Below are positions 7,177-58,399 of a DNA stretch of 64,000 nucleotides, piece by piece. The stretch is from Caldisphaera sp. Lineage in GTDB: Archaea; Thermoproteota; Thermoprotei_A; Sulfolobales; Acidilobaceae. Location of the stretch: the NCBI RefSeq assembly GCF_023256325.1, contig NZ_JAGDXI010000044.1, positions 1 to 64,000 of the forward strand. The letters are read 5' to 3'. Below the pieces are notes generated by a model. It saw nothing but the letters and a program-made list of their open reading frames with translations. It did no database searches and was not told where the DNA came from. The translations under genes were made by a program, and so were the position numbers. Each line of letters opens with the position of its first letter. The first letter of the stretch is position 1.

Positions 7177-7488
7177 GTAGGCCAGGATAGTGGCTGACGG
7201 GCCTATTGGCCTGAGGAAACACCGCCCTCTCGGTGGCAGCTGGGCCTCTGGCTGAGGTGATACCTCAGGCAACGGCACAGAAACGAAACGGCCTCCATTA
7301 TATGATAATGATGCAGCAAGATCTTCTTGGCAACAAGAAGATAGTAATCTGCTGAAGATAATGGAGGATGCGATGAAACGGCCGACCCCAGCGGAGCAAG
7401 GTAGAGGGCTATGAGGAGCCACGCAAGCCCTCTAAATCCGCAGAGTCAAATGCCACTAAACAGAAGGCGGGTTATTATCCTGGCCTAC
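7177..7488 (+). ncRNA. rnpB: RNase P RNA (type A archaeal)
   Basis: This is the catalytic RNA of RNase P, which removes tRNA 5' leaders. A 13-bp P1 helix closes the molecule: gtaggccaggata (7177-7189) pairs exactly with tatcctggcctac (7476-7488). The conserved CR-I segment GAGGAAAC is at 7213-7220. GAGCAAGG-like CR-IV sequence lies near 7395 and the CR-V segment ACAGAAGGCGGGTTAT near 7460-7475; these form P4. The length of 312 nt and the GC-rich composition in an AT-rich genome both fit. A TATA-like TTTATTAA lies about 25 nt upstream. ORF 7165-7422 on the minus strand is a shadow. Confidence 0.95.
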
Positions 7489-33589: not shown

Positions 33590-33862
33590 TCATTTTAATA
33601 TATTTTTAGCTCTGTCTTCAGGCCTTCCTATCAACTCGTCTCCTAAAATAATTATTTTTTCACTATCGACTCTAAATTCAAGAACTGCCCCTTTTTTTAA
33701 AATTTTTAATTTATCTTTATCTGTTTCCAAAACTATAGTATTTTTTGTTTCATAAAATATTCTTCCGCATTTACCTTCTAAAGAAGGATCCAAATGCTTA
33801 ATGATACAAACTTCTAATCCAATTATTTCATGATATAATAAATTTTTTCTATTTACTTTCAA
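33590..33862 (-). CDS. rnp1: RNase P protein Rpp29 (Rnp1/Pop4)
   Basis: A 90-aa RNase P protein subunit that binds the specificity side of the RNA together with Rpp21. The Sm-like beta-barrel motif is visible: EIIGLEVCIIKHLDPSLEGKCGRIFYETKNTIVLET near residues 12-47, then LKKGAVLEFRVDSEKIIILGDELIGRPEDR. Its place after L29 within the ribosomal operon is the standard archaeal arrangement. It begins 12 nt after the rpl29 stop. Confidence 0.9.
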   Translation of the reverse strand: MKVNRKNLLYHEIIGLEVCIIKHLDPSLEGKCGRIFYETKNTIVLETDKDKLKILKKGAVLEFRVDSEKIIILGDELIGRPEDRAKNILK

Positions 33863-57603: not shown

Positions 57604-57676
57604 ATATATTTTATTTTTAAAAAATTAAAGCTACGTTTATTAAGGGTTCTATTTAATTTAATATAAGGTGAAAGAT

Positions 57677-57934
57677 TTGAGCGAGCAAAAGAAAGAAAAA
57701 ACCTCCCAAGACTCACAAATAATAGAAGAGTTAGGATATCCAGCAGAAGTGATACAATTAATAGGCAGAACTGGGGTAGCTGGAGAAGTTACTCAGGTTA
57801 GAGTTAGAATTCTTGAAGGCAAAGATAAAGGTAGGATAATAACAAGAAATGTAATGGGCGCAGTAAGAATAGGAGATATAATAATTTTAAGAGAAACGGA
57901 AAGAGAGGCGAGAAAATTAACAAGAAAGAGGTAA
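57677..57934 (+). CDS. rps28e: Ribosomal protein eS28
   Basis: Archaeal/eukaryotic small-subunit protein eS28, 85 aa, an OB fold near the mRNA exit. [59 protein letters not shown] is diagnostic. The N-terminal 20 residues are a charged extension. TTG 57677 follows GGTGA by 6 nt; the ORF-track GTG is part of that site. It lies 9 nt upstream of the Pop5 gene. Confidence 0.95.
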
Positions 57935-57943
57935 AAATAAGTA

Positions 57944-58399
57944 ATGAATTTTTACTTTTTATACATTATTCTATTATCAATTATTATTGCAACTATTATT
58001 AGTACTTTCATCACATATATTTTAAATAAAAGTTATTTTAATAAATTATCAAAAAACTTTATAATAATACCAAAAAAGTCCAAGATAAAAAAATCAAGAA
58101 AAAGATATTTAGTTTTTGAAATAGCTACATCGAAACAAATAGACCCTGGTTTATTAGAAAATGCCATTAGGGAAAAATATAAAGAGTTATTTGGAGCAAC
58201 AAATCTTGCAGATTCCTATTTAAAATTAATATATTTTAATAACGTGACAAATAGAGGTATAATAAGAATCAAACACATATATGTTGACTATCTTCTGTCT
58301 TCGTTATCTCTATTAAGAAAAATAGATAATAATGATATATTAATAATACCAATAAAGACGAGCGGTACTATTAACAAAGCAAAAAAGTTACTCTCTTAG
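57944..58399 (+). CDS. rnp2: RNase P protein Pop5 (Rnp2) with N-terminal membrane segment
   Basis: A Pop5/Rpp14-type RNase P subunit of 151 aa. The RRM-like domain spans about residues 50-150: KRYLVFEIATSKQIDPGLLENAIREKYKELFGATNLADSYLKLIYFNNVTNRGIIRIKHIYVDYLL and the terminal PIKTSGTINKAKKLLS. Unusually, the first 28 residues (MNFYFLYIILLSIIIATIISTFITYILN) form a transmembrane helix, and no ATG, GTG or TTG lies between it and the domain. GAGGT lies 10 nt before the ATG. It is co-transcribed with eS28 and convergent with the OBG-type GTPase (4-nt overlap). Confidence 0.82.
   Translation: MNFYFLYIILLSIIIATIISTFITYILNKSYFNKLSKNFIIIPKKSKIKKSRKRYLVFEIATSKQIDPGLLENAIREKYKELFGATNLADSYLKLIYFNNVTNRGIIRIKHIYVDYLLSSLSLLRKIDNNDILIIPIKTSGTINKAKKLLS

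Follow-up and report, generated by a model that had tools for sequence, protein, structure and literature searches.

The window analysed here, a stretch of 64,000 nucleotides from Caldisphaera sp. (contig NZ_JAGDXI010000044.1 of assembly GCF_023256325.1), carries the gene for the RNase P protein Pop5, as well as those for the RNase P RNA and the Rpp29 protein. The following features, given in coordinates of the window, are relevant to this work:

7179..7486, plus strand: RNase P RNA (RF00373, 183.6 bits, full model)
33590..33862, minus strand: rpp29, 90 aa, no hydrophobic extension (PF01868, E-value 2.4e-21)
57668..57934, plus strand: rps28e, the upstream neighbour of pop5 (PF01200, E-value 1.1e-31)
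57928..57932, plus strand: Shine-Dalgarno-like motif (GAGGT) 11 nt upstream of the ATG; it overlaps the stop codon of rps28e
57944..58399, plus strand: pop5, RNase P protein component 2 (PF01900 match, fold like Pop5 in 2czv and 2av5)
57950..58027, plus strand: predicted N-terminal transmembrane helix, about residues 3-28 (hydropathy, AlphaFold)
58061..58102, plus strand: flexible basic linker, residues 40-53 (pLDDT dips to 66)
58103..58387, plus strand: Pop5 RRM-like domain, residues 54-148 (PF01900 match and RNase P Pop5 fold)

The identity of the gene, the helix, its conservation, the topology signal and the completeness of the RNase P gene set were computed here. The pop5 reading frame (57944-58399, plus strand) is stop-free over 151 codons, and in a profile search residues 54-148 of its product match the PF01900 family (RNase_P_Rpp14/Pop5) with an E-value of 2.4e-21 and 76.2 bits, against a curated cut-off of 23. 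The narrower NCBIfam equivalog PRK03717 (120 positions) gives a score of 42 against a cut-off of 195, so the protein falls outside this equivalog. The same residues also match the solved archaeal and yeast Pop5 chains. The best Foldseek matches of the modelled protein are 2czv, 2av5, 3wz0, 6agb and 6k0a, and the fold search leads to Pop5 of Pyrococcus, Thermococcus, yeast, Methanocaldococcus and human RNase P; the model superposes on 2av5 at 1.2 A over 98 columns. Residues R17, Y18, G47 and S103-G104-T105 of Pop5 are highly conserved (PMC4919917); in the Caldisphaera protein R54 and Y55 are invariant and G84 and G141 are conserved at 90% or more in a 42-sequence alignment of relatives, with the SGT motif at residues 140-142. 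This Pop5 is the single match in its own genome (1.5 Mb, 50 contigs), and a second, soluble Pop5, for which the genome was searched, was rejected, as none was found. Judging from its sequence, the gene encodes an ordinary Pop5, the only one available to what is probably an RNA-based RNase P of the archaeal type.

The genes for Rpp21 and Rpp30 were found on other contigs of the Caldisphaera genome, and with the RNA, Rpp21, Rpp29 and Rpp30 all encoded alongside Pop5 the RNase P gene set is complete. The Rpp30 frame has 214 codons, the length of the family profile. Inspection by eye revealed no N-terminal helix in Rpp29 and Rpp21 of this genome, and no membrane helix was detected within the N-terminal 80 residues of Rpp30 in any of 11 relatives (a twelfth, L219, apparently taken in a wrong frame, was left out).

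In the N-terminus of Pop5, the best 19-residue Kyte-Doolittle (KD) window scores 2.66 and lies inside FYFLYIILLSIIIATIISTFI, where helix calls are based on hydropathy and a hand-made insertion score rather than on a trained membrane predictor. AlphaFold, run with the 42-sequence alignment, places one unbroken helix at residues 2-39, with block pLDDT values of 93-98 over residues 1-30 and a mean of 94.6 for the protein; a Sulfolobaceae Pop5 was modelled with a pLDDT of 88.0, and in both models the N-terminal helix is a separate element. The first-pass annotation had described a hydrophobic helix of 28 residues ahead of the Pop5 domain. The helix itself is confirmed by the hydropathy, the model and the recurrence described below, while its extent has to be revised to a modelled helix of residues 2-39 with an apolar part at about 3-28. 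The basic linker KKSKIKKSRKR that had been noted behind the helix was located at residues 44-54.

The annotated ATG is the only ATG, GTG or TTG codon in frame 5' of the Pop5 domain, and the GAGGT motif at 57928-57932 precedes it, in agreement with the earlier statements that no start codon separates helix and domain and that a ribosome-binding site serves the upstream ATG. The same GAGGT motif is found ahead of the pop5 start in three sister genomes. It is highly improbable that the extension is an annotation or sequencing artefact and that translation truly starts after the helix: such a start would resemble pop5 elsewhere in the phylum, which typically begins about 7 residues before the domain, but nothing in the window gene itself suggests it. 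The gene has no start codon after the helix, its upstream ATG is preceded by the Shine-Dalgarno (SD) motif, and the feature recurs in 155 of 160 separate genomes. A frameshift or fusion artefact was also considered and was rejected, since the helix recurs across genomes.

The distribution of the helix was followed in Pop5 frames taken from 160 genomes of the order of the window (Sulfolobus and relatives; 11 families), from three genomes that belong to the same class but to other families, and from 65 genomes elsewhere in the phylum. An apolar segment was called where a 19-residue KD window reached at least 1.6 between the frame start and the Pop5 domain. Of the 160 genomes of the order, 155 have the helix ahead of the domain, and they represent all 11 families, the Sulfolobaceae and the Acidilobaceae among them; the 155 include genome G003, where the helix is plain in the N-terminal sequence. 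These segments span at least 19 residues, usually uncharged, and their KD values are typically 2-3.5. Recurrence on this scale is more than chance. The five remaining genomes are of three kinds. In the two genomes of genus g18 (G039 and G068; loci L115 and L138), pop5 begins with the domain itself and shares about 22 nt with the 3' end of rpp30; as the genus lacks the extension entirely, the anchor is dispensable there. In G118 pop5 is cut by the contig end, and G070 and G143 (family f7) have a weaker, Ala-rich segment with KD values of 1.3-1.4. At locus L115, a 5S rRNA-like sequence was observed close behind pop5.

Outside the order, all three class neighbours (G409-G411; L260-L262) have the helix, and their extension is longer and seems to comprise two hydrophobic helices. 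In none of the 65 phylum members outside the class does a start codon precede a helix, and most of their matches to the profile of the order set in behind the helix position; the others cross stop codons or read-through. None of 64 control genomes of other lineages is stop-free over the 60 codons upstream of the Pop5 domain; a hydrophobic stretch occurs in just three read-throughs among them, and controls G204 and G232 exceed the hydropathy threshold only in read-through ahead of any start codon. The earlier suggestion that the helix may be a lineage-specific oddity is thus refuted, as it spans the whole order and reaches the class neighbours. In four families of the phylum (f13, f14, f16 and f19), neither PF01900 nor the profile of the order identified Pop5 in near-complete genomes, and the protein there is either strongly diverged or absent.

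Two database entries encountered in this survey deserve separate mention. A Sulfolobaceae-type Pop5 with the helix is present in JAFMDM010000010.1 (L231/L281), titled "Euryarchaeota archaeon"; genome G441 is placed in the family Sulfolobaceae, and the title looks wrong. Genome bin G430, with 7% contamination, contains two different Pop5 genes (L271 and L298) and is probably a mixed bin.

The helix is also independent of the gene context. Linkage of pop5 and rpp30 to exosome genes is the ancestral state (PMC4919917). In the genus of the window, pop5 has moved directly behind rps28e, with which it likely shares one transcript. The rpp30 gene has kept its place in the exosome neighbourhood and is found on contig 48, some 5 kb away from the genes of the exosome core. 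In most other families of the order pop5 still follows rpp30. Since the helix is kept both behind rpp30 and after the relocation, it was not acquired through the move.

The window was compared with three sister genomes for signs of selection on the helix. In all pairs, pN ranges from 0.27 to 0.59 in the helix region versus 0.06 to 0.35 in the domain, and of 55 helix replacements counted against the window, 53 introduce an uncharged residue. In neutral simulations at the divergence between G000 and G003, 0.9% of the sequences stay open and equally hydrophobic. Fast drift of the sequence with hydrophobicity kept is a pattern typical for a membrane anchor.

The charges around the helix provide the topology signal. 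In 148 of 154 genomes of the order, the flank after the helix is more positive than the flank before it, with a mean net charge of -0.45 before the helix and +3.3 in the 15 residues after it. From this asymmetry, a cytoplasmic position of the Pop5 domain is expected. A cleaved signal peptide leading to export of Pop5, for which the N-terminal position and hydrophobicity might speak, is hardly conceivable, because the absence of a positive n-region and the positive flank after the helix are the reverse of a signal peptide, and it is the cytoplasm where the sole Pop5 has to join its RNA. Alternatively, the helix might lie outside the membrane and pack on Rpp30, on the second Pop5 or on another partner, serving assembly or thermostability. 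Archaeal RNase P does contain a heterotetramer of Pop5 and Rpp30 (PMC6565675), and in several members the apolar part runs on into a long polar helix. However, Pop5-Rpp30 of other archaea assemble without the helix, hydrophobicity is the only conserved property of the mostly uncharged segment, and both this property and the strong positive-inside asymmetry fit lipid better than a specific interface; we therefore regard packing on a partner as unlikely.

Internal translation starts bear on a further alternative, in which a tethered full-length protein coexists with a soluble form arising by internal initiation or proteolysis, so that RNase P would be only partly at the membrane. At least one ATG, GTG or TTG codon lies between helix and domain in 105 of 154 genomes, but there is none in the other 49, including that of the window. 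An SD-like motif was found ahead of the start upstream of the helix in 111 of 152 genomes and ahead of an internal start in 25 of 108 tested, both figures being raised by the several candidate starts per genome; against the per-codon background of 0.127 the internal starts have no clear SD excess. Two products are accordingly a rather improbable arrangement.

The first-pass annotation had raised the possibility that a membrane-tethered Pop5 places tRNA processing at the membrane, and this reading is supported in silico by the conserved hydrophobic helix, the positive-inside topology, the high-confidence model and the start-codon evidence. We consider it likely that Pop5 with its N-terminal anchor holds RNase P at the membrane; membrane insertion, the location of the holoenzyme and the benefit are what we infer from the computed features. 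The helix would insert with its short N-terminus outside and the positive linker inside, and the Pop5 domain would hang in the cytoplasm from the basic tether. Pop5 is the partner of Rpp30 and contacts the catalytic domain of the RNase P RNA, so that its anchor would keep the entire holoenzyme on the inner face of the membrane. In the holoenzyme of M. jannaschii, the basic N-terminal tail of Pop5 helps to clamp RNA region CR-IV, and two Pop5 copies are located at the dimer centre (PMC6565675). The basic linker may thus extend the N-terminal tail known from that organism, preceded by the helix, and an enzyme dimeric as in Methanocaldococcus would have two anchors.

In a likely course of events, this explanation taken as a whole, the anchor was added to Pop5 by an ancestor of the order, and probably by an ancestor of the class. 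That the anchor was kept through order-wide divergence despite sequence drift suggests that location matters for tRNA maturation in these organisms. The benefit probably lies in bringing tRNA 5'-maturation together with other RNA processing or decay at the membrane, such as that by the exosome. Since a membrane location has been reported for the S. solfataricus exosome (Roppelt 2010, as cited in PMC7613921), it is plausible that RNA-processing machines share a place at the membrane. A bolder extension, to which we give somewhat less than even chances, is that throughout the order, and thus also in Sulfolobus, all RNase P is a ribozyme bound to the membrane with two anchors per dimer and forms one RNA-processing centre at the membrane together with the exosome.

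The almost universal RNase P is regarded as a soluble enzyme, or as a nuclear or organellar one. A survey of archaeal RNase P proteins in 678 genomes makes no mention of a membrane or of such a helix and contains nothing that speaks against one (PMC4919917), the word "membrane" is absent from two RNase P reviews, and in the open-licence literature we found no report of a membrane Pop5 or a membrane RNase P in archaea. The present analysis implies that an enzyme thought to be free in the cell may work at the membrane in Sulfolobus and its relatives. The anchor could bear on older Sulfolobus fractionation results; RNase P of S. solfataricus reportedly has an unusually low buoyant density, about 1.27 g/ml. 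The question can be addressed directly in the genetically tractable Sulfolobus acidocaldarius.

Among known systems, the closest are the archaeal Pop5 proteins of Pyrococcus, Thermococcus and Methanocaldococcus (2czv, 2av5, 3wz0 and 6k0a), which share the fold and the conserved RY, G and SGT residues. As in those archaea, Pop5 of Caldisphaera is a sole copy in a genome that also encodes Rpp30, Rpp29, Rpp21 and the RNase P RNA. The solved chains are 120-134 aa long and match from the domain on, whereas the Caldisphaera protein has about 40 or more additional N-terminal residues that include the helix; to our knowledge, none of the solved archaeal chains has a hydrophobic helix. The view of archaeal Pop5 as small and soluble accordingly holds for the solved proteins and probably fails for this clade. 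Membrane attachment of RNA-processing enzymes is known from other systems. RNase E is a bacterial RNase tethered to the membrane, and the yeast tRNA-splicing endonuclease sits on the mitochondrial outer membrane. RNase Y is likewise membrane-bound (PMC5030255). RNase Y and RNase E offer a functional analogy in that a short element keeps these RNA-processing enzymes at the inner membrane, but they are unrelated proteins of mRNA decay, while the Pop5 anchor is part of one subunit in a ribozyme complex for tRNA 5'-maturation. The yeast endonuclease is also a membrane-tethered tRNA-processing enzyme, although it is eukaryotic and represents another step and another enzyme. The exosome of Sulfolobus solfataricus is an RNA-processing machine of the same order and at the membrane, but a different complex.
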